Origin: a virus
Direction: 5' to 3' (one strand)
DNA length: 32,016 bases
Virus record (IMG/VR): IMGVR_UViG_3300007523_000048
Location: 1-32,016 of that record
Shown one piece after another: positions 2,153-21,101 of the stretch (position 1 is the first letter of the stretch; the number at the start of each line of letters is the position of its first letter). A program made the translations under genes and the position numbers. The notes under the pieces were generated by a model. The model saw only the letters and a list, made by a program, of their open reading frames with translations. It made no database searches and had not been told where the DNA came from.

Positions 2153-2161
2153 ATATTTATA
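2153..2161 (+). promoter_or_regulatory. ATATTTATA late-type motif
   Basis: ATATTTATA followed by ATT and the ATG of the gene at 2165. There is no TTTG at the -33 distance. It belongs to a class seen in front of most putative virion genes in this window. Confidence 0.5.
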
Positions 2162-2164
2162 ATT

Positions 2165-2488
2165 ATGAACATCAAAAAAATAATAAAGGAAGAAATCGAT
2201 AACTTCGATTGGGTTAATGATATGGAAACCCCACTTTCGTGGTTAATCGATAATTTTGGGGGTTTGACACCGGTTGTTAAGGATGATAAAACATTTTATG
2301 TCGATGGTAATGAAAACCCAATTTTTTATTATTATGGGAATAATAAAAATAAACATTGTTACATTAGTGATGGTAAAATATGGTTAGTTTTGGAGTCCCG
2401 TTTTGGGATTAATTATAATGAAATTCGGAAAGTTATAACCATATGGTTGGGTGAGGTATATGGATTAACAGGATTCAGACCACGATAA
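2165..2488 (+). CDS. MNIKKIIKEE-family protein, putative capsid-targeted internal protein (copy A)
   Basis: A 107-aa protein. Residues 1-9 (MNIKKIIKE) are short, basic and end in I-K-E, like a T4 internal-protein capsid-targeting sequence cut by the prohead protease after (I/L)-x-E. Residues 14-17 are FDWV. The body carries T-P-L-S-W-L-I-D-N-F-G, F-Y-V-D-G, a tyrosine-rich F-Y-Y-Y strand, C-Y-I-S-D and L-x-S-R-F-G-I-N-Y, and ends in W-L-G-E-V-Y-G-L-T-G plus a private tail (FRPR). Seven paralogs occur in the window. The virion role is inferred from the leader, the late-type motif upstream and the shared pattern; the body has no family I know. Confidence 0.75.
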   Translation: MNIKKIIKEEIDNFDWVNDMETPLSWLIDNFGGLTPVVKDDKTFYVDGNENPIFYYYGNNKNKHCYISDGKIWLVLESRFGINYNEIRKVITIWLGEVYGLTGFRPR

Positions 2489-2511
2489 ATACAAAGTAAA
2501 AACAGCTGAGG

Positions 2512-2541
2512 GTTGGATGAGGTATACGGATTAACGGGACT
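2512..2541 (+). repeat. Solo junction repeat 1 (orphan C-terminal tail)
   Basis: A 30-nt copy of GTTGGATGAGGTATACGGAT plus TAACGGGACT downstream of copy A. It is in frame with copy A beyond its stop codons and encodes L-D-E-V-Y-G-L-T-G-L followed by its own tail D-K-stop. Confidence 0.8.
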
Positions 2542-2551
2542 AGATAAATAA

Positions 2552-2654
2552 ACTATTCACATACACAGACCAACATCGTTATGATAATTACCTCCCTATT
2601 AATATGGATGAGTATGTTGAGGTTGTGTATTCAAATGATATTATACAAATTTAA
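2552..2654 (+). pseudogene. Possible gene remnant (3' fragment)
   Basis: A short open stretch without a proper start, ending at a TAA at 2652. Its last residues read N-M-D-E-Y-V-E-V-V-Y-S-N-D-I-I-Q-I. The composition looks protein-like rather than random, and the stretch lies between an orphan junction repeat and a convergent gene. It could be the end of a displaced gene; it could also be chance. Confidence 0.2.
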
Positions 2655-2889
2655 ACACAATTTTAGAATCAGCCCATTTTTGATAACCTTTTTTGGGTTC
2701 AATGTAACGAAAGTATTCATCGAATAGTTCATTTAATTCCCATCTGTGGTTAAGACCAAGTTCCGAAGTAATCTGAATAGCATTAGCAAGTACGTCGGTG
2801 ACTAAATAATCTTTACCAGCAATAGCGAATATTTGACCATCGTTCATGTAACCGGTTTTATAACAATGTACGTAATCCCCAACCTTCAT
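2641..2889 (-). CDS. Small protein, pair family with next gene (MKVGDYVHCYKTG)
   Basis: An 82-aa protein. It shares with the upstream gene the order Y-[VI]-H-C-x-x-T-G, F-A-[IL]-A-G-K-x-Y-L-[VI]-T, then I-x-x-x-x-E-[IL]-G-x-x-x-x-W and an E/D-x-Y-F near the end, so the two are tandem duplicates. The spacing is 1 nt, consistent with one operon. The predicted fold would be mainly beta. I recognise no function. Confidence 0.7.
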   Translation of the reverse strand: MKVGDYVHCYKTGYMNDGQIFAIAGKDYLVTDVLANAIQITSELGLNHRWELNELFDEYFRYIEPKKGYQKWADSKIVFKFV

Positions 2890-2890
2890 T

Positions 2891-3133
2891 TTAAATAAAT
2901 TTTAATTTTTTAATATTTTTTCTTACCATGTCTTTGGTGAAATACTTATCAAATAATTCATCACCTAAATACCACATATGGTTATCATTTCCAATCTCAT
3001 TTAATATCGTGATTCTATTATTGAATTCACTATAACTAGTGATTAAATAATTTTTACCAGCCAAGGCGAACACTTCTGAATTATTTCTAAAATGACCGGT
3101 CGTATGACAATGTATATATTCTCTTTCTTCCAT
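2891..3133 (-). CDS. Small protein, pair family (MEEREYIHCHTTG), first in operon
   Basis: An 80-aa paralog of the downstream gene. The frame is open to 3172, but a GTTG-N20-TATATTTG promoter lies inside that extension and the ATG at 3133 follows it by 5 nt, which aligns the start with the paralog (MKVGDYVHCYKTG against MEEREYIHCHTTG). I therefore place the start at 3133. Function is unknown. Confidence 0.7.
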   Translation of the reverse strand: MEEREYIHCHTTGHFRNNSEVFALAGKNYLITSYSEFNNRITILNEIGNDNHMWYLGDELFDKYFTKDMVRKNIKKLKFI

Positions 3134-3138
3134 ATACA

Positions 3139-3170
3139 CAAATATACTAATAACTTTTTTCATATACAAC
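3139..3170 (-). promoter_or_regulatory. Host-type promoter GTTG-N20-TATATTTG
   Basis: On the minus strand, GTTG (3167-3170), 20 nt, TATATTTG (3139-3146), then 5 nt to the ATG at 3133. It matches the Bacteroidota -33/-7 layout and decides the start of the gene it precedes. Confidence 0.6.
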
Positions 3171-3196
3171 ACTTGTTTTTATTATTATAACTTATT

Positions 3197-3445
3197 ATGT
3201 TTTTGATTATGACTAATTTTATTTTAGATGATGGTACATATGTTGATGTCGGTCAAGTGTGGACTTGTGAAGGGGATGGAGAATTTACTATAATGTACTT
3301 AAACAACTTCACTGAACAAATGTTTGTTAATGACGGTGAAATATCATGGAGTAATTTTAAATTGAATTATGAAAATGAGGTGTTATATCGTTACAACATT
3401 ATTTCACCAAAAAAATACATCATACCATATTGTTTTACTACATAG
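3197..3445 (+). CDS. Hypothetical small protein
   Basis: An 82-aa protein (alternative start at 3209, MTNFILDDGTYVDVG). It carries V-G-Q-V-W-T-C-E-G-D-G-E-F-T-I and then M-Y-L-N-N-F, a pattern that suggests a small beta-barrel, but I recognise no family. It stands alone between a divergent minus-strand operon and the three-module gene at 3487. No clear promoter element precedes it. Confidence 0.55.
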   Translation: MFLIMTNFILDDGTYVDVGQVWTCEGDGEFTIMYLNNFTEQMFVNDGEISWSNFKLNYENEVLYRYNIISPKKYIIPYCFTT

Positions 3446-3474
3446 GTTTTTTCTATGCTTATAATTATAGGTGC

Positions 3475-3483
3475 ATATTTATA
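3475..3483 (+). promoter_or_regulatory. ATATTTATA late-type motif
   Basis: ATATTTATA, then ATT, then the ATG at 3487. The same sequence (ATATTTATAATTATGAAC) precedes copy A at 2165. It supports 3487 as the true start instead of the longer open frame from 3430. Confidence 0.55.
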
Positions 3484-3486
3484 ATT

Positions 3487-4308
3487 ATGAACCTTAAAAA
3501 AATTATCTTAAAAGAAGTGAACGACTTCGACTGGGTTGCCGACATTGAACCAAATAATTCTGACAAATTACGATATATATTACGTGTGGAACCAAAATTT
3601 CAATTAAACCATTTATCTGACAAATATAATGGACACCACTCGGAACATTCCGAAATTACTTTTATGGGTGAACACGTACATGCAATTAACGTTCGTGGTG
3701 GTGTTAATGATTGGGTTAGGAACATAAATTATCGGATTAAACATGTCTCTAGTAGTTATAAACATTACGATGTTTTGTTATACTTACAAGAGTTGTTTGT
3801 GAATTACCGTAATACAAATAATTCGATGACCGAATCCAACGAATTCGAATGGGTTGGGGAATTTGAACCACAATTATCCATTGGTATGGAGGTAAAAATG
3901 GAAGATGATGAATATCGTGTGATAGACGTAAATAACCAAGTTACTATGGAACATATAGAAAGTGGTATATCTATCACTAGAAGTCTTAAAAACATACAAG
4001 AACTATTAAACAATGGTGGTATTGAAGTATATCATGACCCAAAATTTATTAAAGAAAATTTTGATTGGTTGGATGACGCCCCATCTCGTGTTACAGACTG
4101 TTCGGAACTTTCGATTGGGGCTAAGGTTAGGGTTATTGATAATGTTGATAAAGTTAATAAACTTAATGGGTTAGATGGGGTTATCACACTTGTGGAACAC
4201 GGGATTTATGTAATTAAATTCGTAGATGTAAAATTAGGTGGTGGTTTAATGCCAACGTGGCACTTTCTTTGTGATAAACTAGATAAGGATAATATAATAT
4301 TAATATAA
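3487..4308 (+). CDS. Three-module FDW polyprotein with capsid-targeting-like leader
   Basis: A 273-aa protein starting MNLKKIILKE. Three modules each open with the FDW motif right after a hydrophobic-x-E tripeptide: L8-K-E10 then NDFDWV (13-17), M114-T-E116 then SNEFEWV (117-123), and I188-K-E190 then NFDWL (191-195). Cleavage after these glutamates by a T4 gp21-type prohead protease would give three pieces of about 106, 74 and 83 residues. The third resembles a KOW/SH3-like barrel (I-G-A-K-V-R-V ... G-L-D-G-V-I-T-L-V). No module has a recognised function. The frame is open upstream to 3430, but the late-type motif and leader homology fix the start at 3487. The polyprotein reading is inference. 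Confidence 0.8.
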   Translation: MNLKKIILKEVNDFDWVADIEPNNSDKLRYILRVEPKFQLNHLSDKYNGHHSEHSEITFMGEHVHAINVRGGVNDWVRNINYRIKHVSSSYKHYDVLLYLQELFVNYRNTNNSMTESNEFEWVGEFEPQLSIGMEVKMEDDEYRVIDVNNQVTMEHIESGISITRSLKNIQELLNNGGIEVYHDPKFIKENFDWLDDAPSRVTDCSELSIGAKVRVIDNVDKVNKLNGLDGVITLVEHGIYVIKFVDVKLGGGLMPTWHFLCDKLDKDNIILI

Positions 4309-4310
4309 AC

Positions 4311-4667
4311 ATGAACATTAAAAAAATAATAAAAGAAGAGATTGATAACTTTGATTGGGTCAATGAAATGGAAACCCCACTTTCGTGGTTAATAGATAAT
4401 TTTAGTGATTTGACCCCGGTTAATAGGGATAATAAAATATTTTATGTTGATGGTAATAATAATGGTTTTTTTTATTATTATTGGGGTGAAGAAAATGAGT
4501 ATTGTTACATTAGTGATGGTAAAATATGGTCAGTTTTGGCGTCCCGTTTTGAGTTTAACTATAAGAAATTTCAGAAAGTTATAACCACATGGCTGGATGA
4601 GGTATACGGAATAACTGGACTCATACCTGTAAGGCAAATGAATACAAAGCATTTGGTAGCTGGATGA
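4311..4667 (+). CDS. MNIKKIIKEE-family protein, putative capsid-targeted (copy B)
   Basis: A 118-aa protein with the same leader, FDWV and body as copy A, ending W-L-D-E-V-Y-G-I-T-G-L-I-P and then a private tail (VRQMNTKHLVAG). The stop codon TGA lies inside the next junction repeat, read out of frame. It begins 2 nt after the three-module gene and has no motif of its own, so it is probably co-transcribed with it. Confidence 0.75.
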   Translation: MNIKKIIKEEIDNFDWVNEMETPLSWLIDNFSDLTPVNRDNKIFYVDGNNNGFFYYYWGEENEYCYISDGKIWSVLASRFEFNYKKFQKVITTWLDEVYGITGLIPVRQMNTKHLVAG

Positions 4668-4688
4668 GGTATACGGAATAACTGGACT
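4659..4688 (+). repeat. Solo junction repeat 2 (orphan tail)
   Basis: GCTGGATGAGGTATACGGAA plus TAACTGGACT. Read in the junction frame it gives L-D-E-V-Y-G-I-T-G-L-I-P-Q-A-F-stop, an alternative tail. It supplies the stop codon of copy B out of frame. Confidence 0.8.
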
Positions 4689-4723
4689 CATACCTCAAGC
4701 ATTTTAGTCTACATTGTTTTCTA

Positions 4724-4738
4724 GTTGGATGAGGTATA
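4724..4738 (+). repeat. Truncated junction repeat 3
   Basis: GTTGGATGAGGTATA, with the usual 5' edge, running directly into AAGATACTATATTAAACTAT, the promoter segment shared by copies C, D and E. Confidence 0.7.
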
Positions 4739-4755
4739 AAGATACTATATTAAAC

Positions 4756-4763
4756 TATTTATA
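4756..4763 (+). promoter_or_regulatory. TATTTATA late-type motif
   Basis: CTATTTATAATT directly before the ATG of copy C at 4767. The same element with the same preceding GATACTATATTAAA occurs before copies D and E. Confidence 0.5.
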
Positions 4764-4766
4764 ATT

Positions 4767-5123
4767 ATGAATATTAAAAAAATAATAAAGGAAGAGATTG
4801 ATAACTTTGATTGGGTTGGTGAGGGTCAAACACCATTATCATGGTTAATTGATAATTTTGGTGATTTGACACCGGTTGTTGATGGTAATAAAACATTTTA
4901 TGTCGATGGTAATAATAAAATATTGTTTTTTTATTATCAGGGTGGAGAAGATGGGGTTTGTTACGTTAATAATGATGAAATATGGTTTGTTTTGAGGTCC
5001 CGTTTTGGGATTAACTATGGTGAAATTACGGAAGTTTTAACCACATGGTTGGATAAGGTCTACGGAATAACGGGACTTAAACCCAGTAACGGGCGTCAAT
5101 ACAAACAAACCAAAATTGGGTAA
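4767..5123 (+). CDS. MNIKKIIKEE-family protein, putative capsid-targeted (copy C)
   Basis: A 118-aa protein: leader MNIKKIIKE, NFDWVGEGQTP, then the family body (P-L-S-W-L-I-D-N-F-G-D-L-T-P-V-V-D-G-N-K-T) and junction W-L-D-K-V-Y-G-I-T-G-L, ending in the private tail KPSNGRQYKQTKIG. That tail, with its downstream promoter segment, reappears almost unchanged as an orphan after copy D (107 nt, four mismatches by eye), which is direct evidence for duplication of the tail segment. Confidence 0.75.
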   Translation: MNIKKIIKEEIDNFDWVGEGQTPLSWLIDNFGDLTPVVDGNKTFYVDGNNKILFFYYQGGEDGVCYVNNDEIWFVLRSRFGINYGEITEVLTTWLDKVYGITGLKPSNGRQYKQTKIG

Positions 5124-5154
5124 GGTATAAAGATACTATATTAAACTATTTATA
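5048..5154 (+). repeat. 107-bp tail-plus-promoter repeat, copy 1
   Basis: It runs from the junction of copy C through its tail and the next promoter motif. The second copy is at 5502-5608. The last 84 nt differ at one position, and three more differences lie in the first 23 nt. It includes a degenerate junction (ATTGGGTAAGGTATA, 5115-5129). Confidence 0.85.
5147..5154 (+). promoter_or_regulatory. TATTTATA late-type motif
   Basis: ACTATTTATAATT directly before the ATG of copy D at 5158. Confidence 0.5.
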
Positions 5155-5157
5155 ATT

Positions 5158-5490
5158 ATGAATATTAAAAAAATAATAAAGGAAGAGATTGATAACTTTG
5201 ATTGGGTTAATGAGGAAACACCACTTTCGTGGTTAATCTATAATTTTGGTGATTTAACACCGGTTGTTAGGGGTAATGTAACATTCTATGTTGATAATAA
5301 TGATGAAAAATTGTTTTTTTATTATCAGGATAAAAAAAATGGGGATTGTTACGTTAAATATGATGAAATATGGACAGTTTTGGCGTCCCGTTTTGGTATT
5401 AATTATGGTGAAATTCAGAAAGTTACAACCATGTGGTTGGATGAGGTATACGGATTAACAGGACGTACACCTAATCTTTGGGACTTCTAA
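5158..5490 (+). CDS. MNIKKIIKEE-family protein, putative capsid-targeted (copy D)
   Basis: A 110-aa protein: leader, NFDWVNEETP and family body, with C-Y-V-K-Y-D in place of C-Y-I-S-D, junction W-L-D-E-V-Y-G-L-T-G and private tail RTPNLWDF. Read on past its TAA, the same frame enters the orphan junction at 5502 and then the tail of copy C, so the orphan looks like an old 3' end that copy D's present tail has displaced. Confidence 0.75.
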   Translation: MNIKKIIKEEIDNFDWVNEETPLSWLIYNFGDLTPVVRGNVTFYVDNNDEKLFFYYQDKKNGDCYVKYDEIWTVLASRFGINYGEIQKVTTMWLDEVYGLTGRTPNLWDF

Positions 5491-5501
5491 AATCTCTATA
5501 A

Positions 5502-5608
5502 GTTGGATGAGGTCTATGGATTAACGGGACTTAAACCCATTAACGGGCGTCAATACAAACAAACCAAAATTGGGTAAGGTATAAAGATACTATATTAAAC
5601 TATTTATA
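5502..5608 (+). repeat. 107-bp tail-plus-promoter repeat, copy 2 (contains solo junction 4)
   Basis: Solo junction (5502-5531) followed by a tail nearly identical to that of copy C (KPINGRQYKQTKIG), a degenerate junction (5569-5583) and the TATTTATA motif (5601-5608) that serves copy E. It is in frame with copy D beyond its stop. Confidence 0.85.
5601..5608 (+). promoter_or_regulatory. TATTTATA late-type motif
   Basis: ACTATTTATAGAT directly before the ATG of copy E at 5612; part of the 107-bp repeat. Confidence 0.5.
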
Positions 5609-5611
5609 GAT

Positions 5612-5956
5612 ATGAATATCAAAAAAATAATAAAAGAAGAAATTGATAACTTTGATTGGATTAACCAATCGGGAGTTGAAACCCCACTATCGTGGTTAAT
5701 CAATAATTTTGGTGATTTAACACCATTTGTTGATGGTAATAAAACCTTTTATGTTGGTAATAATAAACCGATTTTTTATTATTATCAGGATGAAAAAAAT
5801 GGGGATTGTTATATTAGTGATGATGAAATATGGTCAGTTTTGAGGTCCCGTTTTGGGTTTAATTATAAGGAAATTCAGAAAGTTATAACCACATGGCTGG
5901 ATGAGGTATACGGAATAACTGGACTCATACCATACATTACCAATGTCTTCTGGTAA
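5612..5956 (+). CDS. MNIKKIIKEE-family protein, putative capsid-targeted (copy E)
   Basis: A 114-aa protein. It has the leader MNIKKIIKE and an NFDWI motif followed by NQSGVETP, an insertion also found in the distant copy G (IDQSGFETP) 20 kb away. The body is as in the family, with junction W-L-D-E-V-Y-G-I-T-G-L-I-P and private tail YITNVFW. The link between copies E and G shows exchange or duplication between the two clusters. Confidence 0.75.
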   Translation: MNIKKIIKEEIDNFDWINQSGVETPLSWLINNFGDLTPFVDGNKTFYVGNNKPIFYYYQDEKNGDCYISDDEIWSVLRSRFGFNYKEIQKVITTWLDEVYGITGLIPYITNVFW

Positions 5957-5962
5957 CCATCT

Positions 5963-5992
5963 GTTGGGTGGGGTATACGGAATAACTGGACT
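5963..5992 (+). repeat. Solo junction repeat 5
   Basis: GTTGGGTGGGGTATACGGAA plus TAACTGGACT. It reads L-G-G-V-Y-G-I-T-G-L-E-K-Y and on, in frame with the next gene's ATG at 6018. It is out of frame with copy E. Confidence 0.75.
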
Positions 5993-6017
5993 AGAAAAAT
6001 ATAATATTAATTTAAAC

Positions 6018-6245
6018 ATGAACATTAAAAAAATAATAAAGGAAGAGATTGATAAAAAAGTTTGGGGTATCGAACTACCTAAAAAAGTTAGTTTTGGGGA
6101 TGATATATTAACCCTAACTGATAGAGGTGTTTACCAAGGGGGTGATATTGAAGTTGAATATTGTGTTGATGGGGATGATATATTAACTTTAGATGGTGAT
6201 ATACTAACCCCAGTTAATGATTCTGATTTTGTTTACGGTGGGTGA
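6018..6245 (+). CDS. Capsid-targeting-like leader fused to an unrelated body
   Basis: A 75-aa protein. Residues 1-12 (MNIKKIIKEEID) are identical to the array family, but the rest (KKVWGIELPKKV, two D-D-I-L-T-L units) is unrelated and lacks the FDW motif. The frame is open upstream to 5943 through the orphan junction; the start at 6018 is chosen by leader identity. A leader conserved at the same N-terminal position on a different body argues that it is a separable targeting signal. The gene overlaps the convergent gene at 6214 by 32 nt. Confidence 0.65.
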   Translation: MNIKKIIKEEIDKKVWGIELPKKVSFGDDILTLTDRGVYQGGDIEVEYCVDGDDILTLDGDILTPVNDSDFVYGG

Positions 6246-7018: not shown

Positions 7019-8632
7019 ATGTCATATATAGTAAGAAAAAATTGTGTTTACAGAAAAATCAATAACAAAATGGTTGGTTGTACTAATGGTTCTATGGAGA
7101 AGTATTTAACAAAGTTGGGTATAAACGAATCTAATGATTTTGAATGGATTGATGATATTCACGGAGAGGTTGAATTTGAATTATGGGAAAAAGTAACCAC
7201 CATCATTAATGATTTGGTATATGGACCATCATCGTTTCAATCAGCATCGACGAGAAAATTAGCATCTATCCTATTAAATTATGATATCGATATTGATGAT
7301 ATGGGTGAGTTTTTTATTTTTCCACCTAAGGATTTTAACGGAAATGAAATCACACAACACCAATTTACTGAAATAAATGACGAATTAACTGATAATGGTT
7401 TTGTTGATGATTATGATGGTGATATTACTGAATCTAGTGAGTTTGATTGGGTTGATGATGGTGTTGGTGATGGTGATATTGTGGTTGGTAGTGTATTTAG
7501 ATGGTCAGCTTCCGATATGGATAGTAAAATGGAACTAGTGGGGGTTGACTACCAAGTACATTGGGTGAATAGTATAACTGGTTATGAAAATAGTATGAGT
7601 ATTGAAGCATTTAAAAATGGTATAAGTAGAGGTGATATATTATATGATGGAAACATAAACGAATTAAATAAAAATTTAAATGAAGACTTTTTTTTTAAAG
7701 GTGTGAATCCCACAGTGGATTTGGTTGTCACTCGTGGTGATGAGGTGTTACTAATTAAACGGTCTGATGATTCAGATATTGAAGCTGGAAAATGGGCTTT
7801 ACCTGGTGGTTTTCATGATACTAAGGCAAAGAAAGGTGAAGAATGGAAAGATGATAAGGAAACTTCGTTAGAAGCTGCCAAACGTGAAGTAAAAGAGGAA
7901 ACAGGGTTGGATGTGGACTTAATTGGTGGACTTAATTTTGAAATGGTTGGTGTATTTGAAGGTGGTGGTAGAGACCCAAGGGATAAAGAAGATTCATGGA
8001 CTAGGAGTACGGTTTATAAAGTACAAATCCCTGAGGATATGGGTAATGAGGTAAAAGGTATGGATGACGCTCAGGAAGCTAAATGGGTTCCAATAAAAAC
8101 AGCACTAAAAACTGAATTAGCTTTTGACCATCACATTATTATTGAAAAGTCACTTAGTGTAAATGAATCTAACTACTTCGATTGGGTTGAATCAATTGAG
8201 GTGTTCCAAAATCCAGCTGTTTATCGAATTAATGATATGGTTAAACGGGAAGAGTTTTTTCGAACATTACATGACGAAGGTTATTATTGGGGCCCCAATA
8301 AACCAATTATCCAACCAGATGGTAGTTTTACTAAATTATATGCTGGGTTAGATGAATACGTATTCCTTGGTCTTAACGATAATGACCGAAAGATAGTATA
8401 TCATGATAGACAAATACCACATAAGACATCTTTAAATGATGTTATTGTTATTGAATCGATAAAACTACCTATCGATATTGGTGACACAATCTATATGGGT
8501 AAATTTAAGAATAAAAAAACAATAGTTAAAGATATTGAGTGGAGTGAAAAAGGTGATTTATTAATTAATGGTAAATCAGCTTTACGATTGAGAATAACTA
8601 AAAATCTTAAAAAGTTGGGGAAGGTTAAATAG
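7019..8632 (+). CDS. Multi-module FDW polyprotein with internal Nudix hydrolase domain
   Basis: A 537-aa protein. Residues 1-37 form a basic leader with two cysteines ending I35-N-E37, followed by NDFEWI (39-44). A second break is I136-T-E138 followed by SSEFDWV, and a third is V381-N-E383 followed by SNYFDWV. Cleavage there would release pieces of about 101, 245 and 154 residues. The middle piece ends in a Nudix domain (about 231-380): P-G-G (262-264) and Nudix-box R-E-V-K-E-E-T-G-L (289-297), with the upstream E seven residues before the R as expected. G-R-D-P-R (317-321) recalls ADP-ribose/NAD-type Nudix enzymes; the substrate is not proven. The Gly-to-Glu spacing of the Nudix box is longer than canonical because of a Lys/Glu-rich insert. 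Processing and packaging are inferred. Confidence 0.85.
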   Translation: MSYIVRKNCVYRKINNKMVGCTNGSMEKYLTKLGINESNDFEWIDDIHGEVEFELWEKVTTIINDLVYGPSSFQSASTRKLASILLNYDIDIDDMGEFFIFPPKDFNGNEITQHQFTEINDELTDNGFVDDYDGDITESSEFDWVDDGVGDGDIVVGSVFRWSASDMDSKMELVGVDYQVHWVNSITGYENSMSIEAFKNGISRGDILYDGNINELNKNLNEDFFFKGVNPTVDLVVTRGDEVLLIKRSDDSDIEAGKWALPGGFHDTKAKKGEEWKDDKETSLEAAKREVKEETGLDVDLIGGLNFEMVGVFEGGGRDPRDKEDSWTRSTVYKVQIPEDMGNEVKGMDDAQEAKWVPIKTALKTELAFDHHIIIEKSLSVNESNYFDWVESIEVFQNPAVYRINDMVKREEFFRTLHDEGYYWGPNKPIIQPDGSFTKLYAGLDEYVFLGLNDNDRKIVYHDRQIPHKTSLNDVIVIESIKLPIDIGDTIYMGKFKNKKTIVKDIEWSEKGDLLINGKSALRLRITKNLKKLGKVK

Positions 8633-11458: not shown

Positions 11459-13537
11459 ATGGAAGTGAATAAACACATAAATTTTCTTAAAAGACGTGGG
11501 TTTTTAATGAAAGAGGGTACGAATGATAAATTCTTAACACCTAAGGATATTAGTAGTAAGTGTCGTAAACACACGGATAGAGATGAAACACACACGTTTT
11601 GTAGTTTAGATAACCTATATAAGGATATCGAGGGTGATAGTGGTTTACAAACAAAATTAATGACATCACTCAATAAGATTTACCAACACCTTCACCCGAA
11701 TAAAGTTGATAATAGACGTAAATTCAGTAAATTAGTTGATGCTGTAATGAGTGAACAATCAACAACCACTATTAGTACTTTTGAAGTAATATCTAATAAT
11801 CTAGATGTTGTTAATATCGATATATTAGTTAAGGGTATTAATAGTGGTGATGTAAATCTTGATGGTGTGAACAATGTTGATGGGTTTTTAGAACAGATTA
11901 GGGATATTAAGTACCAAACATATACAATGTATGAAAATAGTTTTGTGTCAGATTATTTAGTGTCAGCTAAAAAAAGTTTAAGACTAAAATATGATGATGA
12001 GATATCATTTCAGGTACGTTTGGGTCAAATAATAATGGGTCATAAGGTTAAAACCTTTAATACTGATTTAGAAATCAGAAACCTAATTAAACACATGTAC
12101 GACTCAATAGAAAGAAACCTTAAAGGGTCTTTACATGAGTTTATTAAAGCTGATGTTATGTGTACCAAGGATTTAACAGATGAAAATGGTGATGTTGTTG
12201 TTAAAAGAGGTGATTACATTGAAATTAAAAAATTAGATACGTGGTCAGATAGTTATATATCTGAATTTTTCGCGATATATAAAAACACTACTAATGAGAT
12301 GTTAAAAAGTGATTATGGTTATTTTCTATATAATAAAATTATTGATGGGTTATATATTAGAATTAAAGAGGGTTTTGGTTCTAATATGATTGAAGCCATT
12401 AAAGATAAATTAAGTGGGATTATGTTTGATGGTAATAAATTTGTTCCTATTGAAAATATTAACCTATATTGGTCAAATAGGGGTCAAAGAACTAAGGACC
12501 ATAGACTATCAATTAGATATCAAATAAATGTGAATGAATTAAACGCTTATTACTTTAATACAGAAACTAACCCACCTATGTTTACGAGTTTATCTACGGA
12601 AAATAGACCAAACAGAAGTGAAAAATATAATACAGAACGAAATTTAAAATTTATTACTGAACCACCAATCAGTGAAAATGTAATTAAGGAAGAAACGTCT
12701 GATTTCGATTGGGCAACTGAATATATGGAAACAACACCGAACAATCCGTATATGTTGGCGATAATGAAATGTAATAAAGAAAATTACGAAATATTGGATG
12801 GTCTTGACCCTGATGAATATGAGACCTATTGGTCAATGAGGGAGTACGTTAATGACAATGATGAAAGTATTTTTATTGGTACAAGGGATGAGGCTACTAA
12901 ATCATTAACTGATATGACTTATGATTATTTAAGTGATGATATTTTTAGTTTAGAATCTTATGGTTTAGACCCCGAACAATATGTGATAATCGATGAACCA
13001 ATGATAAATATGATAGCTTCAGATGAGTCTGATTATCATATTGGTCACTTAAGTGATGATGATGTCTTACTTATAACTGATAATAATACGGAATATGAAA
13101 CCCTTGAAGAAGAAATTGATGAAATAGATAGTGGTATTGAGGAATTATCTGTTAGAATAATGATAGCTGATTCAGAAGAGATGGTGGAGGTTGTAAATCA
13201 ATTAACTTCTGAAATGGAGGAGTTGGAAAGTAAAAAAGAAGACATAGAAAAACTTAAATATGAATTAATTGAATCATCTAAACTTAAAGCAACTGAGGAT
13301 TATTATTATGAAATCCAAAAAGAAATGACACAAAGTCCTATTAACTATTTTATTGAAAATGGTACATATGGTAGTGTTGACGAAGTAATTACTAGTTTGG
13401 GTTTGAGGTTTAATTATCGGGAAGCTGCCGAAGACATCGCTTCCCAAGGTGATTTTAGACCACTAAACCAATTTAGTGATAGTTATTGTACGGAATATTT
13501 TGATGGTGAAGATTACATTGTGTTTACAGACATTTGA
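11459..13537 (+). CDS. Large two-part protein with internal I-K-E/FDW break; possible nuclease-like N-part
   Basis: A 692-aa protein. The N-terminal ~410 residues include C-R-K-H and C-S near 35-50 and a segment D232 ... Y-I-E255-I-K257, which looks like the D-xn-E-x-K core of PD-(D/E)xK nucleases; this is weak and by eye only. At I409-K-E411 followed by ETSDFDWA (412-419) the protein shows the same hydrophobic-x-E/FDW break as the putative polyproteins. The C-terminal part (about 280 residues) is very acidic, with a coiled-coil-like stretch (about 535-605, rich in E, I, L). Cleavage at 411 would separate the two parts. Function is unknown. Its end overlaps the convergent gene by 25 nt. Confidence 0.75.
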   Translation: MEVNKHINFLKRRGFLMKEGTNDKFLTPKDISSKCRKHTDRDETHTFCSLDNLYKDIEGDSGLQTKLMTSLNKIYQHLHPNKVDNRRKFSKLVDAVMSEQSTTTISTFEVISNNLDVVNIDILVKGINSGDVNLDGVNNVDGFLEQIRDIKYQTYTMYENSFVSDYLVSAKKSLRLKYDDEISFQVRLGQIIMGHKVKTFNTDLEIRNLIKHMYDSIERNLKGSLHEFIKADVMCTKDLTDENGDVVVKRGDYIEIKKLDTWSDSYISEFFAIYKNTTNEMLKSDYGYFLYNKIIDGLYIRIKEGFGSNMIEAIKDKLSGIMFDGNKFVPIENINLYWSNRGQRTKDHRLSIRYQINVNELNAYYFNTETNPPMFTSLSTENRPNRSEKYNTERNLKFITEPPISENVIKEETSDFDWATEYMETTPNNPYMLAIMKCNKENYEILDGLDPDEYETYWSMREYVNDNDESIFIGTRDEATKSLTDMTYDYLSDDIFSLESYGLDPEQYVIIDEPMINMIASDESDYHIGHLSDDDVLLITDNNTEYETLEEEIDEIDSGIEELSVRIMIADSEEMVEVVNQLTSEMEELESKKEDIEKLKYELIESSKLKATEDYYYEIQKEMTQSPINYFIENGTYGSVDEVITSLGLRFNYREAAEDIASQGDFRPLNQFSDSYCTEYFDGEDYIVFTDI

Positions 13538-14004
13538 TTATCAAGAATAAACCAATTAGGTGTATCCCGTTTATTCCATACACAGAAACTACTTTTTTCT
13601 TTAATGTAGTAGTTACGATAAGCCTCAACCGTATCATCTAACTTACAATCATCAGGCATTGCCTGTGGTGGGTCTGTGAACGGAATTTTAGGTAACTGAG
13701 GTTCATTGTCACGACACCATTCAATAATTACCTGTGACTTGTGTACCTTACCATATCGATGAGTGTATTCATAGGACAACTCTAACCCTAAGTCACATAA
13801 CCAACGATAGTTATTTATCGATTGTCTTGTCCATATTGTGGATGGATGGTTTTTATGTGTTAATCGATATGGTGCCTCTGTACCAAATAACCATTGTGTT
13901 GCACATAACAGTTGAGCCGTTTCCAATATCATCTTAACAACATGTTTGTTACAATGATATTCAGCACATTTTTTTGTTTCCCTATCTAAATAAAATATAT
14001 TCAT
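13513..14004 (-). CDS. Conserved phage protein (MNIFYLD...HCNKHVVKM family)
   Basis: A 163-aa protein with a pattern I remember from many phage genomes: M-N-I-F-Y-L-D, C-A-E-Y-H-C-N-K-H-V-V-K-M-I-L-E-T-A-Q-L-L, N-H-P-S-T-I-W-T-R, N-Y-R-W-L, E-Y-T-H-R-Y-G-K-x-H-K-S, A-M-P-D and A-Y-R-N-Y-Y-I-K-E-K. The invariant His, Cys and Arg residues suggest an enzyme, possibly a DNA-processing one, but its activity is not established to my knowledge. It is the second gene of a minus operon and overlaps the first by 4 nt. Confidence 0.75.
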   Translation of the reverse strand: MNIFYLDRETKKCAEYHCNKHVVKMILETAQLLCATQWLFGTEAPYRLTHKNHPSTIWTRQSINNYRWLCDLGLELSYEYTHRYGKVHKSQVIIEWCRDNEPQLPKIPFTDPPQAMPDDCKLDDTVEAYRNYYIKEKSSFCVWNKRDTPNWFILDNQMSVNTM

Positions 14005-14345
14005 AATACTACACTGTTTAAAAACTCATCCATACTTATTTCAATACCCGTTTTAATTCGATTAGGTTTCACATCCCAGCCAGTATTAATATGTGGTACA
14101 TTTGTAGTTAACACAAAGGTTAAATAAACCTTATTACCCAGTCTCCTAATATTTTCATTACTAAACCAATTAACATATGAATTATAATTAGTCCCATATG
14201 TCAACCAACCCTCACCAACTAAATTATTTATTTTATCCCTAACTGAAGGTTCGTAAAACCCAATAATAGTGGTATCAATACAGTATTCGGTATCATATTT
14301 TAATTCAAAACATGCTATATCATCAACCCAATCAAAATCACCCAT
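14001..14345 (-). CDS. FDW-motif small protein
   Basis: A 114-aa protein starting MGDFDWVDDIACFELKYD. The FDW motif directly follows the start codon, as in the other minus-strand and leaderless family members. The body (Y-C-I-D-T-T-I-I-G-F-Y, V-G-E-G-W-L-T-Y-G, V-Y-L-T-F-V-L-T-T-N-V-P-H) looks beta-rich and matches nothing I know. It is transcribed from a perfect host-type promoter and is therefore probably made early, unlike the capsid-targeted relatives. Confidence 0.7.
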   Translation of the reverse strand: MGDFDWVDDIACFELKYDTEYCIDTTIIGFYEPSVRDKINNLVGEGWLTYGTNYNSYVNWFSNENIRRLGNKVYLTFVLTTNVPHINTGWDVKPNRIKTGIEISMDEFLNSVVL

Positions 14346-14361
14346 ATTAATTAATTTTTAC

Positions 14362-14393
14362 CAAATATAGGGTTTATTAATCGTTTAACCAAA
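14362..14393 (-). promoter_or_regulatory. Host-type promoter TTTG-N20-TATATTTG
   Basis: On the minus strand, TTTG (14390-14393), 20 nt, TATATTTG (14362-14369), about 16 nt before the ATG at 14345. Confidence 0.62.
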
Positions 14394-14408
14394 TTTATAT
14401 TGATAATT

Positions 14409-14618
14409 ATGGAGGATAAACAAAAAGAACAAGTAGAACACCCGAAACATTATAATGTTGGGATTGAGGTGTGGGATTACACATCGTCACATAAATTAGA
14501 TTTTTTAGAGGGTAACGTGGTAAAGTACGTTACAAGATGGAGACATAAAAACGGAATACAGGACCTATATAAGTGTCGTGAGTATTTGGATAAATTAATC
14601 GAGGTGAATAAAGGGTAA
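14409..14618 (+). CDS. DUF3310-family phage protein
   Basis: A 69-aa protein with the DUF3310 signature: H-P-K-H-Y-N-x-G-I-E-V-W-D-Y near residues 11-23, L-E-G-N-V-V-K-Y-V-T-R-W-R-H-K-N-G, then D-L-Y-K-C-R-E-Y-L-D-K-L-I. The family is common in phages; it is often annotated as a nucleotide kinase-related protein, but its biochemical role is unsettled. The ATG at 14409 is chosen over a TTG at 14400 because it is preceded by TTGATAATT, as in other starts here. Confidence 0.85.
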   Translation: MEDKQKEQVEHPKHYNVGIEVWDYTSSHKLDFLEGNVVKYVTRWRHKNGIQDLYKCREYLDKLIEVNKG

Positions 14619-14626
14619 ATGTGTGG

Positions 14627-14635
14627 ATATTTATT
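14627..14635 (+). promoter_or_regulatory. ATATTTATT late-type motif
   Basis: GGATATTTATTAATAAAATA lies about 13 nt before the ATG at 14649. The spacing leaves room for a short leader. Confidence 0.45.
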
Positions 14636-14648
14636 AATAAAATAAAAG

Positions 14649-16175
14649 ATGACATACATTCTACCAAAAAATTTATTAATAGAGTCTGGTATACGAAACA
14701 TACGGGAGTTATCCAAAAGATATAAAAAAGCTAAGATTTATTTTCACCAAGATTTAGATGGTGTAACAACAGCTTTAGGTATGAAGTATTATTTAGAGAA
14801 TAACGGTATTAAAGTGGTTGATGCTGAAACTATTCAATATGGTGATACCGAATTTTCAGTTAAAAAACCAGACGCTAGTGGTGAGGTGATGCCTGTTTTA
14901 GTGGATTTCGCACACGGAAAACCAATGTTTGTAATACACACAGACCACCACGATTCACAAGTGGGGGTTGAAAAGAATACATCAACATCATTTAAACAAT
15001 CAAGGTCAAATGTTGAAACGGTTTCACAAATTTTATCACCCTCTGACATATTCCCATCGGACGATATTAAAATGATATCAACGGTTGATTCAGCTGATTT
15101 CGTTAGTATGGGTGTGACTGTTGATGATGTTATGAGTTTTGTGTTTAGTAATAAAACAAATGAAGTAGTTAATGGTTCATCTGTGATAAAAAAATTCATT
15201 TTATGGGTTAAGACCAATTTAGGAAAAAAACCTAAATTAAATAATGAATTTCAGGTCAGTGGAAGGAAAAAAATAATGTCATTAGTAACAAATAAATTAC
15301 TTTTAGCTTATAAAAACAAACCTAAGTTCTTAGAAAGGTTAGTTTTGGAATCAACCCCATCGTTAGTAAATATTTATGTTAATATTCTTAAAATGGCTAA
15401 GGAAAGTGGTTACGCCACACCTGAGGAAATGACAAAACACCAAACAGACTACACACAAGCACAAAAAAGTAGTGATAGTGTTAAATATGACAAAGATTAT
15501 GGGATTATCACACAATACGGTGGAGGTTCAATGTTCAAACCTGGTTCGTATGATAGATACACACCATTTAAAAACAACCCTGACGCTAATTTTATTGTTT
15601 TAGTATGGCCAATGGGTCTTATGCAATCAAGTTGTAACCCATTTCAAACAAATAGGTCACTAAAAGGTGTTAACCTTGGTGATATTGCTCAAGAAGTCTT
15701 AATAAAATTCAAAGAAGAGTTACAAAATGTCACATTAACCTTCGATACAATCAAATATTTCTCGGAAAAACATAAATCATTCACAGAAGATAGTGTTGGT
15801 TTTACTTATAGTGATATGGTTGCGTTATTTAACGATACTGATGGTGGTATTAAAGGTTTGGGTGAGACACCTAAGGGTTCTTCATCTGAATACACCGTAG
15901 AACGATGGCAGGCAGCAATTAAAAAGATTATGAGTAAACCATATAGCTCATTAAGTGATAAAGAAGTGAAAGCACTTAAATTACTATCACTTAATGGTTG
16001 GGATATGATTCAATCACAGTCAGGTGGTCATAAGTGTATAACAAACATATCGGGTTTTATGTATTTTGGTAAAAATGGGGTTCCATTTATGAAAAAAATA
16101 GCTCGTGAATTCTATAATGAACTTAAAAGACGAATTGATGTTGATAAAGATGTTGATTTAGCTAGTGAAGATTAA
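14649..16175 (+). CDS. DHH-family phosphoesterase
   Basis: A 508-aa protein. DHH motifs: F-H-Q-D-L-D-G-V-T-T-A (D35, D37), V-L-V-D-F (D86), H-T-D-H-H-D (D99-H100-H101) and S-T-V-D-S-A-D (D147, D150). Near the C-terminus S-G-G-H-K (458-462) fits the G-G-H substrate-binding motif of a DHHA1-type domain. Family members (RecJ, NrnA, GdpP) cleave phosphodiester bonds in ssDNA, nanoRNA or cyclic dinucleotides with Mn2+. This protein is too divergent for me to assign the substrate. It is oriented toward ClpC, with a shared terminator between them. Confidence 0.85.
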   Translation: MTYILPKNLLIESGIRNIRELSKRYKKAKIYFHQDLDGVTTALGMKYYLENNGIKVVDAETIQYGDTEFSVKKPDASGEVMPVLVDFAHGKPMFVIHTDHHDSQVGVEKNTSTSFKQSRSNVETVSQILSPSDIFPSDDIKMISTVDSADFVSMGVTVDDVMSFVFSNKTNEVVNGSSVIKKFILWVKTNLGKKPKLNNEFQVSGRKKIMSLVTNKLLLAYKNKPKFLERLVLESTPSLVNIYVNILKMAKESGYATPEEMTKHQTDYTQAQKSSDSVKYDKDYGIITQYGGGSMFKPGSYDRYTPFKNNPDANFIVLVWPMGLMQSSCNPFQTNRSLKGVNLGDIAQEVLIKFKEELQNVTLTFDTIKYFSEKHKSFTEDSVGFTYSDMVALFNDTDGGIKGLGETPKGSSSEYTVERWQAAIKKIMSKPYSSLSDKEVKALKLLSLNGWDMIQSQSGGHKCITNISGFMYFGKNGVPFMKKIAREFYNELKRRIDVDKDVDLASED

Positions 16176-16181
16176 AAATAA

Positions 16182-16212
16182 AAAACCCCTACCATAAATT
16201 GGTAGGGGTTTT
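16182..16212. terminator. Bidirectional rho-independent terminator
   Basis: A 12-bp perfect stem AAAACCCCTACC / GGTAGGGGTTTT with a 7-nt loop (16194-16200), flanked by A-rich sequence on one side and T-rich on the other. It lies in the gap between two convergent genes (DHH and ClpC) and can serve both. Confidence 0.92.
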
Positions 16213-16216
16213 GTTT

Positions 16217-18709
16217 TTACTTCTCTATAGTTTCGGGTTTAATAATTTCGACTGTTACATCGTCTTTTTTATAACCAACCTTGATTATGTCACCTTCTTC
16301 AACGTCACCTTCAAGTAACCTTTCAGCGATTGGGTCTTCGATGAATTTTTGGATAGCTCTGTTAAGTGGTCTAGCTCCATATTTTTCGTCGTAACCAACT
16401 TCAGCGATGTGTTCTTTCAACCTCGGTGTGATTTTAACCGAATAACCTAAATCAGCTATTCTATTAGTTAAATCTTTAAGTGGTAACTCAACCATTTTCT
16501 TAATATCCTCTTTTGTAAGGGAATTAAAAACAATAATCTCATCTAATCGATTTAAGAATTCAGGTGCGAATGATTTTTTTAATGATTCTTGGATAATATC
16601 ATTAGTTAATATATCCTGAGTCTCAATCTTCGCCTTAGTCCCAAAACCAACACCAGTCCCAAAGTCTTGTAACTTTCTAGCTCCAATGTTTGATGTCATG
16701 ATAATCATGGTGTTCTTAAAGTTCACCTTTCTACCCAACGAGTCAGTTAAGTGACCCTCATCTAACAATTGAAGTAAGATGTTAAACACATCAGGGTGTG
16801 CTTTTTCAATCTCATCCAATAAAATCACTGAATATGGTTTTCTTCTAACTTTTTCAGTTAATTGTCCACCTTCCTCATAACCAATGTATCCCGGAGGTGC
16901 TCCAACTAACTTAGATACAGCGTGTTTCTCCATGTATTCAGACATATCAATTCTAATTAACGAATCAGTCGTCCCAAATACGTTCTCAGCTAACATCTTA
17001 GTCAAATGTGTTTTACCCACACCCGTTGGACCTAAGAACATAAATGTTCCCATTGGTTTGTCAGCCTTATTGATACCAATTCTACTCCTTTTAATCGCTT
17101 TAGAAATTTGAGTGATAGCATCATCCTGACCAAGTACCTTAGTTTTCAACTCTTTTTCCATGTTGATTAACTTTTGGATTTCATCTTTACCAACCTTAGT
17201 CACTGGAATACCAGTAGACATAGAAACTACCTTAGCGACATCATCTTCGGTAATAATTTTTCGACTTTTATTGGTATCTGAATTCCATTTTTCTGTCTCA
17301 ACTTCTAATTTTTCTTGAAGTTGTCTTTCTTCATCACGAAGTCTTGCTGCTTCCTCATATTTCTGTGATTTAACAACAGCAACTTTTTTATAACCAATTT
17401 CAACAATTTCTTCTTCTAAATCCAAAATCACTTTTGGTGGTTTAGCGTGGACTTGTGCTCTAGCACCAACCTCATCCAAAATGTCAATCGACTTATCAGG
17501 TTGTTCTCTGTCAGTAACATACCTATCAGATAACCTTACACAAGCCTCAATAGCTTCATCAGTGTAAGTAACTTTGTGGTGGTCCTCATACTTATCCTTG
17601 ATGTTGTTAAGGATAACTAAAGTATCCGCGGTTGAAGGTGGGTTAATCATAACATTTTGGAAACGTCTTGTTAATGCCTTATCCTTTTCGATGTGTTCAC
17701 GGAACTCATCAAGAGTTGTCGCTCCAATACACTGAATTTGACCACTAGCTAAAGCTGGCTTTAACATATTCGACGCGTCCATTGAACCTGAAGCGTTTCC
17801 AGCACCAACCATCGTGTGAATTTCGTCAATAAACAATATAACATCATCAACTTTTTCAAGTTCTTCCATTATACCCTTTAATCTTTCCTCAAATTGTCCT
17901 CGGTATTTAGTACCAGCAACTAATGAACCTAAATCTAACGATACAATTCTCATACCGAATAAAATTCTAGGACATTTTCTAGTTACAATTTTAAGTGCTA
18001 AACCTTCAACAATAGCTGTTTTCCCAACACCAGGTTCACCAATTAAGATAGGGTTATTTTTCTTTCTTCTAGAAAGAATTTGAGACACCTTCTCAATCTC
18101 CTCATCTCTACCAATTATTGGGTCTATTGAACCATTTTCAGCTAATTTAGTAACATCTTTACCGAAATTATCTAAAATTGGTGTTGTTGACTTTGCTGAC
18201 TTACCTTTTGTTTTCTTTCCGAAATTGTTGTCATCTACTTCATCATATCCATCTGTCATACTCATATTTATTTGTTCTTTGGTTTCTATTAATGTTTGTT
18301 TGAATGTTTTATAAGTTATACCTTTATTTCCTAAAAATCTAGTCCCATCCAAAGATTCGTTTTTTAATATAGCTAGAAATATGTGTTCAACACCAATAAA
18401 TCTATCATTTAACTTATCAGATTCAAGTTCAGCTGATGATATAACATTTTTTGATGATTCACTAAAAGGTAATATTTTAGATTTAATAGGGGGACTACTT
18501 GGTTTAGTTAAAATATAACCTTCTAACACAGCTTGTATATCCTCAACATCCGTACCCATTTCAGTTAAAACATCCACCACATCATTATTATCATTTAACA
18601 TTGCTAATAATATGTGTTCAGGTCTTATCTTCACATCACCTAATCTATTAGACTCTTTAAACGCTTGTTTAAATATCGTCCTAACTTTTGGTATCATTCT
18701 TTTACTCAT
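16217..18709 (-). CDS. clpC: ClpC-type AAA+ unfoldase
   Basis: An 830-aa protein with full ClpC architecture. N-domain repeats span about 1-145. D1 has Walker A G-E-P-G-V-G-K-T (224-231) and Walker B F-I-D-E (293-296). A short UVR-like middle segment (Y-E-E-A-A-R-L-R-D-E, 451-460) is ClpC-like, not the long ClpB coiled coil. D2 has G-P-T-G-V-G-K-T (560-567) and L-L-D-E (630-633). The G-V-G-F sequence at 686-689 is in the place of the loop that docks onto ClpP, so it may work with host ClpP. D-F-G-T-G-V-G-F-G-T followed by F-A-P-E-F-L-N-R-L-D-E strongly recalls Bacteroidota ClpC, suggesting acquisition from the host. No ClpP gene is seen in the window. Confidence 0.93.
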   Translation of the reverse strand: MSKRMIPKVRTIFKQAFKESNRLGDVKIRPEHILLAMLNDNNDVVDVLTEMGTDVEDIQAVLEGYILTKPSSPPIKSKILPFSESSKNVISSAELESDKLNDRFIGVEHIFLAILKNESLDGTRFLGNKGITYKTFKQTLIETKEQINMSMTDGYDEVDDNNFGKKTKGKSAKSTTPILDNFGKDVTKLAENGSIDPIIGRDEEIEKVSQILSRRKKNNPILIGEPGVGKTAIVEGLALKIVTRKCPRILFGMRIVSLDLGSLVAGTKYRGQFEERLKGIMEELEKVDDVILFIDEIHTMVGAGNASGSMDASNMLKPALASGQIQCIGATTLDEFREHIEKDKALTRRFQNVMINPPSTADTLVILNNIKDKYEDHHKVTYTDEAIEACVRLSDRYVTDREQPDKSIDILDEVGARAQVHAKPPKVILDLEEEIVEIGYKKVAVVKSQKYEEAARLRDEERQLQEKLEVETEKWNSDTNKSRKIITEDDVAKVVSMSTGIPVTKVGKDEIQKLINMEKELKTKVLGQDDAITQISKAIKRSRIGINKADKPMGTFMFLGPTGVGKTHLTKMLAENVFGTTDSLIRIDMSEYMEKHAVSKLVGAPPGYIGYEEGGQLTEKVRRKPYSVILLDEIEKAHPDVFNILLQLLDEGHLTDSLGRKVNFKNTMIIMTSNIGARKLQDFGTGVGFGTKAKIETQDILTNDIIQESLKKSFAPEFLNRLDEIIVFNSLTKEDIKKMVELPLKDLTNRIADLGYSVKITPRLKEHIAEVGYDEKYGARPLNRAIQKFIEDPIAERLLEGDVEEGDIIKVGYKKDDVTVEIIKPETIEK

Positions 18710-18714
18710 TGGTA

Positions 18715-18746
18715 CAAATATACATAAAATATTACATCACATCAAG
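18715..18746 (-). promoter_or_regulatory. Host-type promoter CTTG-N20-TATATTTG for clpC
   Basis: On the minus strand, CTTG (18743-18746), 20 nt, TATATTTG (18715-18722), 5 nt, then the ATG at 18709. Confidence 0.62.
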
Positions 18747-18887
18747 TTTTAAATTTATTTTTATTTATTTTTTTGTGATAATCTTAGTAATAAGTAACTC
18801 CTACAAATATATAAAGAATTAACTAAATAACAAACAATATTTAGTTTTATTTTAAAAAAATCTATATTTAAGTTAAATTAAAGAAAT

Positions 18888-19094
18888 ATGGAATATAAAG
18901 AATTAACAATCCTATTTAAGGATAACCCAAATAGTGATGATGAATTTGGGGGTACACATAAAGTTGTCTTTTCTAATGCTAGTATAACGATAACAGGTGA
19001 TTACTGTGTAGTGGGTGTAGAAACTAATAAAAAATCGGTAGTTGGTAAAATATACCATCTTAATACGATAATCAGTTATATCGGTAAAGACTAA
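18888..19094 (+). CDS. Hypothetical protein, 68 aa
   Basis: Starts MEYKELTILFKDNPNSDDEFGG. The pattern is beta-rich, with T-I-L-F-K-D-N-P, V-V-F-S-N-A-S-I-T-I-T-G-D-Y, V-V-G-V-E-T and V-G-K-I-Y-H-L-N-T-I. No family is recognised. A TATATTTAAG element lies about 16 nt upstream. The gene shares one base (TAATG) with the KTSC gene, so it leads the small operon that ends with thyA. Confidence 0.65.
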   Translation: MEYKELTILFKDNPNSDDEFGGTHKVVFSNASITITGDYCVVGVETNKKSVVGKIYHLNTIISYIGKD

Positions 19095-19432
19095 TGTTAG
19101 TTGATAAAGTGTTTCAAGAGGACGGAACAATGGAGTGTTTATATAAGTCGACAAATATTTTAATGTCGGAGTATAATGAAAAAACACAGAATTTAATTAT
19201 CACATTTAATTATGGTGGTAAATATGCTTACCATAATGTATCATATAAAGATTACCTAAGGTTTGAAGCTGATGAATCACAAGGTAAGGTTTTTAACAAA
19301 TACATTAAAATTCATAAAACAGATAATTTAGGTAAAGTTGATACTAGCTTGATGCTTGAAAGAATAAACAATATGTTTAAGAAAGATATCAAAGAGGAAA
19401 AAGAAGGAATTAATGATGAAAACGTAGAATAA
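19094..19432 (+). CDS. KTSC-domain protein
   Basis: A 112-aa protein. Residues about 17-75 fit the KTSC pattern: Y-K-S-T-N-I-L-M-S-E-Y-N, L-I-I-T-F-N-Y-G-G-K-Y-A-Y-H-N-V-S, then F-E-A-D-E-S-Q-G-K-V-F-N-K-Y-I-K. The domain is found in many phage and bacterial proteins, with proposed links to nucleic-acid metabolism, but its activity is not firmly known. The C-terminal ~30 residues are a charged tail. It overlaps the upstream gene by one base. Confidence 0.8.
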   Translation: MLVDKVFQEDGTMECLYKSTNILMSEYNEKTQNLIITFNYGGKYAYHNVSYKDYLRFEADESQGKVFNKYIKIHKTDNLGKVDTSLMLERINNMFKKDIKEEKEGINDENVE

Positions 19433-19444
19433 GGGTATTACCAT

Positions 19445-19618
19445 ATGATTAATATGAAAAAGAAAAAAATACAATACGCGATAATAGTTGATGAGGGTTA
19501 CTATTGTGTTGTTGAGGTTAAAAAATTTTTATATATTTTTAGGTATGCTAAAGGTGTATTTGAGTTTAAAACTCTTTGTGAGGCTAATAACTTTATAAAC
19601 GAATTAAAAAAAATATGA
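19445..19618 (+). CDS. Hypothetical 57-aa basic protein
   Basis: A short frame, MINMKKKKIQYAIIVDEGYY and on (alternative start at 19454). It reads as strand-strand-strand-helix: Y-C-V-V-E-V, F-L-Y-I-F-R-Y, V-F-E-F-K-T-L-C-E-A-N-N-F-I-N-E-L. Its TGA overlaps the ATG of thyA by 4 nt (ATGA), so it is translationally coupled to thymidylate synthase. No family is recognised. Confidence 0.6.
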   Translation: MINMKKKKIQYAIIVDEGYYCVVEVKKFLYIFRYAKGVFEFKTLCEANNFINELKKI

Positions 19619-21068: not shown

Positions 21069-21072
21069 ATTT

Positions 21073-21081
21073 AATAAATAT
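21073..21081 (-). promoter_or_regulatory. ATATTTATT late-type motif, minus strand
   Basis: On the minus strand ATATTTATTAAATATG, leading into the gene at 21068. It is divergent from and adjacent to the plus-strand motif at 21087. Confidence 0.45.
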
Positions 21082-21086
21082 ATAGA

Positions 21087-21095
21087 ATATTTATA
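21087..21095 (+). promoter_or_regulatory. ATATTTATA late-type motif
   Basis: GAATATTTATAAGATATATGG, 6 nt before the ATG at 21102. It probably drives the head-protein operon 21102-25908. Confidence 0.5.
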
Positions 21096-21101
21096 AGATA
21101 T

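Follow-up and report, generated by a model that had tools for sequence, protein, structure and literature searches.

Does a viral open reading frame (ORF) of 273 codons encode one protein, or several small ones strung together and released by proteolysis? The question arises from a 32,016-base IMG/VR record (IMGVR_UViG_3300007523_000048), analysed here over its whole length and called the window below. Its first-pass annotation read ORF 3487-4308 as a three-module polyprotein with a repeated cleavage-site pattern, in which a single leader would serve several cargos and fused modules would interchange with stand-alone proteins.

Organization of the 273-residue protein

The ORF, on the + strand, begins with an ATG at 3487, is open throughout to 4305 and has its stop codon through 4308. 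F[DE]W is found at residues 14-16, 120-122 and 192-194 of the 273-residue product, preceded in each case by a hydrophobic-x-E triplet, namely LKE (8-10), MTE (114-116) and IKE (188-190). The three sites read MNLKKIILKE/VNDFDW, NNSMTE/SNEFEW and PKFIKE/NFDW, the slash marking the predicted cut. All three motifs lie where the first-pass annotation had placed them, and none of 200,000 residue shuffles of the protein contained three F[DE]W (60 contained two). With eight [VILM]-x-E triplets in the protein, the triplet alone is not rare, and the specific feature is its pairing with F[DE]W rather than the triplet itself. The third site is atypical, with one residue between E and F against the usual 2-4. 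Rfam and tRNA searches returned no match. The features are as follows.

3473-3483, +, GCATATTTATA element, late-promoter-like, three bases 5' of the start codon
3487-3516, +, leader MNLKKIILKE, predicted capsid-targeting propeptide cut after E10, from its length, charge and L/I-x-E motif
3526-3534, +, FDW tag 1, residues 14-16, from motif position
3535-3825, +, module 1, residues 17-113; relatives searched, none found
3826-3834, +, MTE, predicted cut 2, after E116, with a 3-residue gap to F
3844-3852, +, FEW tag 2, residues 120-122, from motif position
3853-4047, +, module 2, residues 123-187; relatives searched, none found
4048-4056, +, IKE, predicted cut 3, after E190, with an atypical one-residue gap
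4060-4068, +, FDW tag 3, residues 192-194, from motif position
4069-4305, +, module 3, residues 195-273; likeness to the 284-1068 stand-alone proteins by eye only

A single-sequence fold of the protein (mean pLDDT 29.6) was uninformative on continuity through the predicted cut points. In the fold of a relative (nine rows), the unit following one site, residues 289-397, forms a confident separate domain; the first domain is poor, and therefore the seam was tested from one side only. A structure search with that fold retrieved only helical look-alikes over residues 163-275, which have no bearing on unit 289-397.

Prohead protease and major capsid protein of the phage

The window encodes a gp20-type portal protein (phrog_213, E 9.9e-57), whose best named matches are those of a Microcystis phage and a Flavobacterium phage (37-41% identity). 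A second record, G002, matches window positions 12671-32016 at 100% identity over 19,346 bases and extends beyond the portal gene into an S77 protease gene and the start of the major capsid protein (MCP) gene. Because of this identity, a single phage must carry the protease, the MCP and the FDW genes. The gp21-type protease expected for T4-type substrates is thus present, as an S77 prohead protease (PF03420, E 1.6e-28). S77 proteases are encoded in 9 of the 13 records collected with the leader pattern; G006, one of the 13, lacks F[DE]W genes and was probably hit by chance.

The T4 gp21 protease is described as cleaving after L/I-x-E (PMC9026906) and T4 propeptides as 10-20 residues long (PMC5694885), the first 10 residues of IPIII being the part needed (PMC9026906). 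The leader MNLKKIILKE conforms to this type, that is, about 10-20 residues ending in L/I-x-E. The MCP of G002 carries LINE/T where T4-type propeptides end, and LI[NS]E/T occurs in 8/8 MCPs found, three of which are near-copies of another. In the G013 MCP this site is at residue 60, and a weak alignment (10 bits) sets MCP residue 62 opposite residue 77 of T4 gp23, whose propeptide has 65 residues (PMC5694885). This weakly suggests that the MCP site is close to the gp23 cut position. These MCPs mostly have N at P2, and N and K (15/47 each) are the commonest P2 residues at the internal sites of the FDW proteins. L/I-x-E has an observed/expected ratio of 0.98 (0.90-1.06) in the bodies of FDW proteins, lower than in other proteins, 1.14 (1.10-1.18); this depletion is modest, and L/I-x-D, -K and -Q are not clearly depleted.

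Also in the window, the terminase large subunit is split between 26920-27984 and 29049-30275, both of which match terminase and have intein-like ends by eye, with a separate 361-residue ORF (27974-29059) between them. The 26920-30275 arrangement resembles a split intein accompanied by a free-standing endonuclease.

A hydrophobic-x-E and F[DE]W grammar in related large phages

The gene calls of the window contain 21 F[DE]W in 17 genes, whereas 300 shuffles gave 1.2 on average and never more than 6. Besides the 273-residue protein, the FDW genes of the window include the following.

284-559, 549-797 and 805-1068, +, three leaderless stand-alone FDW/FEW proteins, from the motif listing
4311-5953, +, four paralogous stand-alone leader-FDW proteins, with further copies at 2165, 26005 and 26406
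7019-8632, +, another three-site polyprotein, with a NUDIX domain (PF00293, E 1.4e-15)
11459-13537, +, a 692-residue protein with one internal IKE/ETSDFDW site, from the motif listing
21102-21851, +, a stand-alone nucleotidyltransferase, fused to further units in relatives

The 284-559 protein approaches the PF06701 profile (Mib_herc2/SH3-like small barrels) below threshold (27.2 bits for a cut-off of 33.5, E 3.5e-6), and the 273-residue protein has no match to that profile. The paralogous genes belong to an array at 2153-6055 and 25987-26788, with 79-88% identity and repeated 3' ends, some of them outside ORFs. ORF 5943-6245 has the MNIKKIIKEEID leader, with KKVW replacing NFDW. The 7019-8632 polyprotein opens (7019-7130) with a CVY...GCTxGSxxKYL segment, which in G013 is a separate 55-residue ORF soon after the MCP gene (111973-112137) and is perhaps another head-related leader.

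Across related large phage records, the pattern consists of a basic 9-11-residue leader, hydrophobic-x-E, usually 2-4 residues and F[DE]W. Leaders of the class are 9-11 residues long in 48/53 cases, with a mean net charge of +3.3. In 12 records, near-duplicates included, [VILM]-x-E lies at most 9 residues upstream of 101 of the 136 F[DE]W. The same triplet precedes the control motifs F[KRNSTGQA]W (30/107), [YLIVM][DE]W (57/191), W[DE]F (6/26), F[DE]Y (17/87) and F[DE][FLIV] (98/609).

Leaving out five near-duplicate or partial records, we collected 85 proteins with at least one site, 14 of them with two or more, and 73 internal F[DE]W. The longest string, in G017, has seven sites in 1,072 residues. 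An E lies 3-5 residues upstream of 47 of the 73 internal motifs, and the remaining 26 include unrelated matches. P3 is V, I, L or M at 39 of these 47 sites; for the 1,909 E that these proteins contain, the proportion is 25.4% (binomial p 1.9e-16). The E-to-F gap, most commonly 3 residues at internal sites, is 2-4 residues for 41/73 internal F[DE]W and for 55/67 N-terminal F[DE]W having the triplet, far above the background (85/1,595). The cleavage-site grammar first proposed from the window is borne out for the class by these P3 and spacing statistics. The proposal that one leader serves several cargos does not generalize, as hydrophobic-x-E is found within the first 16 residues of just 9 of the 14 multi-site proteins, and in the G017 protein, one of the nine, it looks coincidental. 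One G013 protein (112748) counted as having no leader carries one behind a later Met.

Scans with IKEExxxFDW and ESxDFDW(V/A)xD retrieved 20 and seven stretches, respectively, and a 380-kb record has 34 genes with F[DE]W, chance ones such as an apparent DNA polymerase included. Two loci from the IKEExxxFDW scan (L013 and L022) look like chance matches. The ExxDF[DE]W DNA pattern is absent from LR756508.1, PP395634.1 and MW353175.1, each searched whole, so the grammar is no general T4-like trait. In the first of these (L098, a 484-kb phage), several genes at 135991-157739 start with KLRxIIREEL-like leaders and have no FDW, which suggests a wider leader family. The leader alone had no match among named phages, and the only match to its pattern in bacterial genomes, an apparent lytic transglycosylase of a Marinilabilia MAG, is a chance hit. 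We found no description of the grammar in the open-licence literature searched.

The chain might also stay whole, as a multidomain protein in which FDW is a short motif binding one phage or host partner shared by these proteins and hydrophobic-x-E is a linker. Proteins with an N-terminal F[DE]W but neither leader nor cut site (MGDFDW, MDGFDW, MSNDFEW) agree with this, as do polyvalent proteins of 2-15 domains, some described as packaged uncut (PMC5512222). We regard it as rather unlikely: a hydrophobic P3 and the observed E spacing occur much more often than in the background, the triplet agrees with the published gp21 motif (PMC9026906) and with the MCP of the same phage, and the leaders have the length of capsid-targeting sequences.

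A shared upstream element

The ATATTTAT 8-mer lies within 60 nucleotides upstream of 27/48 structural genes (those matched to structural seeds), 34/75 FDW genes and 145/893 other genes (Fisher p 2e-8 for FDW versus other genes). The host-like TAnnTTTG precedes one of the 75 FDW genes, as against 88 of the 893 others. Two promoter-like classes are seen, [GC]ATATTTATA before structural and FDW genes (e.g., 3473-3483 and 26907-26916) and TAnnTTTG before others. TAnnTTTG is a promoter element of Bacteroidota. From their distribution, we infer that the ATATTTAT-type element may be a late promoter and TAnnTTTG an early one.

These data bear on whether leader and FDW might send the proteins elsewhere, to the membrane or a replication compartment, with a different protease or none. 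Few modules have a named domain, and that lysozyme and NUDIX are among them would suit such a destination. We nevertheless hold it to be improbable, because the upstream element is common to structural genes, leader-type genes adjoin those of the protease, the scaffold and the MCP, and the MCP itself bears a matching site.

Relatives of the modules and exchange between stand-alone and fused forms

No relative of the 273-residue protein was detected by tblastn in 50,697 phage records, and none was confirmed in viral_contigs for the whole ORF, module 1 or module 2. Compared with 253 other modules, none of its three modules gave a significant match (the best score was reached by fractions of 0.815, 0.35 and 0.075 of shuffles), so that the stand-alone homologues expected for each module were found in none of these collections. 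In a search of 18 records, the confident match is confined to the leader and the stretch up to residue 50 (44% identity, E 5.5e-8), longer rows having E near 1e-3 or worse. Module 3 was considered as a fused copy of the 284-1068 stand-alone proteins, and this was rejected: the E of 7e-4 rests largely on the FDW segment, and once that segment is taken out an equally good score is reached by 248 of 4,768 scored shuffles.

For the class as a whole, modules and stand-alone proteins are of similar size, as had been proposed, with a median of 125 residues both for 27 distances between successive sites and for the lengths of 57 single-site proteins. The nucleotidyltransferase gene, whose Pfam scores are sub-threshold, is the clearest case of exchange. 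It is a stand-alone gene in the window, G002 and G013. G009 and G012 append one unit to it, G005 and G016 append two, and G017 has seven, namely six FDW units followed by the last unit that the other fused forms also have. The seams in G005, G009, G012 and G016 bear the tag variants LDW, FKW, LNW and FSW; therefore, the motif is looser than F[DE]W. Lak phages and a 634-kb phage also have the nucleotidyltransferase, with no FDW seam seen in two translated stretches.

Units, cut here with a looser motif, match across other proteins as well, including unit 2 of G003_21705 and unit 6 of G017_8509 (E 6.5e-16), the G013 protein 112369, which has one site, and a unit of the larger protein 116643 of G005 (E 8.2e-18), and the first module of the 7019-8632 polyprotein and the inside of a G014 polyprotein (E 2.7e-19). 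At L115:4554-7097, a G014 FDW polyprotein has a T4-type lysozyme (PF00959, E 2.9e-21) at its end. The lysozyme, NUDIX and the nucleotidyltransferase are the few modules with a named domain. By these comparisons, and most clearly for the nucleotidyltransferase, modules pass between stand-alone and fused forms in the class. The proposed interchange stands at that level and lacks support for the 273-residue protein, whose modules have no detectable relative.

Extensive exchange at the seams is also what one would see if the motif were a DNA segment kept because it aids module shuffling, with no function in the protein. That is very improbable. The DNA differs in 37 of 41 internal E-to-W segments, and the codon use of F, D and E at the motif is near background (N, with 15 codons, excepted), and therefore conservation acts on the peptide, not on the DNA; moreover, the tag is also present on single-unit proteins.

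Discussion

Our analysis establishes the grammar with its statistical support, a protease and an MCP site in the same phage, the shared upstream element and the class-level exchange of modules. We infer from them targeting and cleavage, a location in the virion, ejection, and what FDW does. On balance, the 273-residue protein is probably a late-expressed, capsid-targeted and protease-processed cargo polyprotein of a large T4-like phage. Its basic leader MNLKKIILKE would carry the chain into the prohead core, like T4 capsid targeting sequences, and the gp21-type protease of the phage would cut after LKE10, MTE116 and IKE190. Cleavage would leave three small mature proteins, each about 75-105 residues long and bearing F[DE]W within a few residues of the N-terminus so created, and they would remain in the head and then enter the next host alongside the DNA. 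Speaking against this are the orphan modules, the atypical gap at site 3 and the absence of a leader from some multi-site proteins. Unless it serves in entry, the lysozyme of the G014 polyprotein would need a site of action outside the head.

The FDW tag would work on the mature N-terminus, most likely for docking or retention. In 5/6 leaderless proteins the Met-to-F gap is 2-4 residues, and because this distance equals that from the cut to F, a tag near the mature N-terminus would fit docking or retention better than a protease sub-site.

One of the closest known systems is that of T4 IPI-IPIII and Alt, with short N-terminal leaders ending in L/I-x-E, an S77 protease and small, diverse cargos (PMC9026906, PMC5694885), and the present phages also have a T4-type portal and MCP. 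Unlike T4 internal proteins, theirs add F[DE]W after the cut and string up to seven tagged units per chain, the T4 system being described as having single cargos, or scaffold proteins cut to head-leaving fragments (PMC9026906, PMC5694885). The inner-body and ejection proteins of phiKZ and SPN3US are similar in that a large phage encodes a prohead protease and some head proteins are cut multiply (PMC5694885); their motifs end in A-x-E or S-x-E and their propeptides are often long, and that account, as far as it covers these motifs, mentions no FDW-like tag (PMC5694885). Polyvalent proteins likewise have many unlike domains per chain and strong mosaicism and are thought to be injected (Iyer et al. 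2017, PMC5512222). Unlike domains and mosaic exchange are seen in the FDW class too, the modules of the 273-residue protein itself having no relative and an unreliable fold. The difference is that the repeated hydrophobic-x-E and FDW seam predicts release of the units, whereas the polyvalent protein DdrB of P1 is described as having a built-in peptidase instead (PMC5512222).

More tentatively, FDW may be a portable cargo tag carried by dozens of small head-loaded effectors, single or in protease-released strings of up to seven, an arsenal that would evolve by insertion and deletion of tagged units at the cut sites. Should the cargo reading be correct, virion cargo could be recognized by a simple sequence rule in large phages, whose genes mostly lack names, and unknown proteins would become testable candidates for ejection. 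The same reading would reveal a polyprotein route for packing several cargos under one signal, and would clearly illustrate how protease sites let proteins evolve one module at a time.
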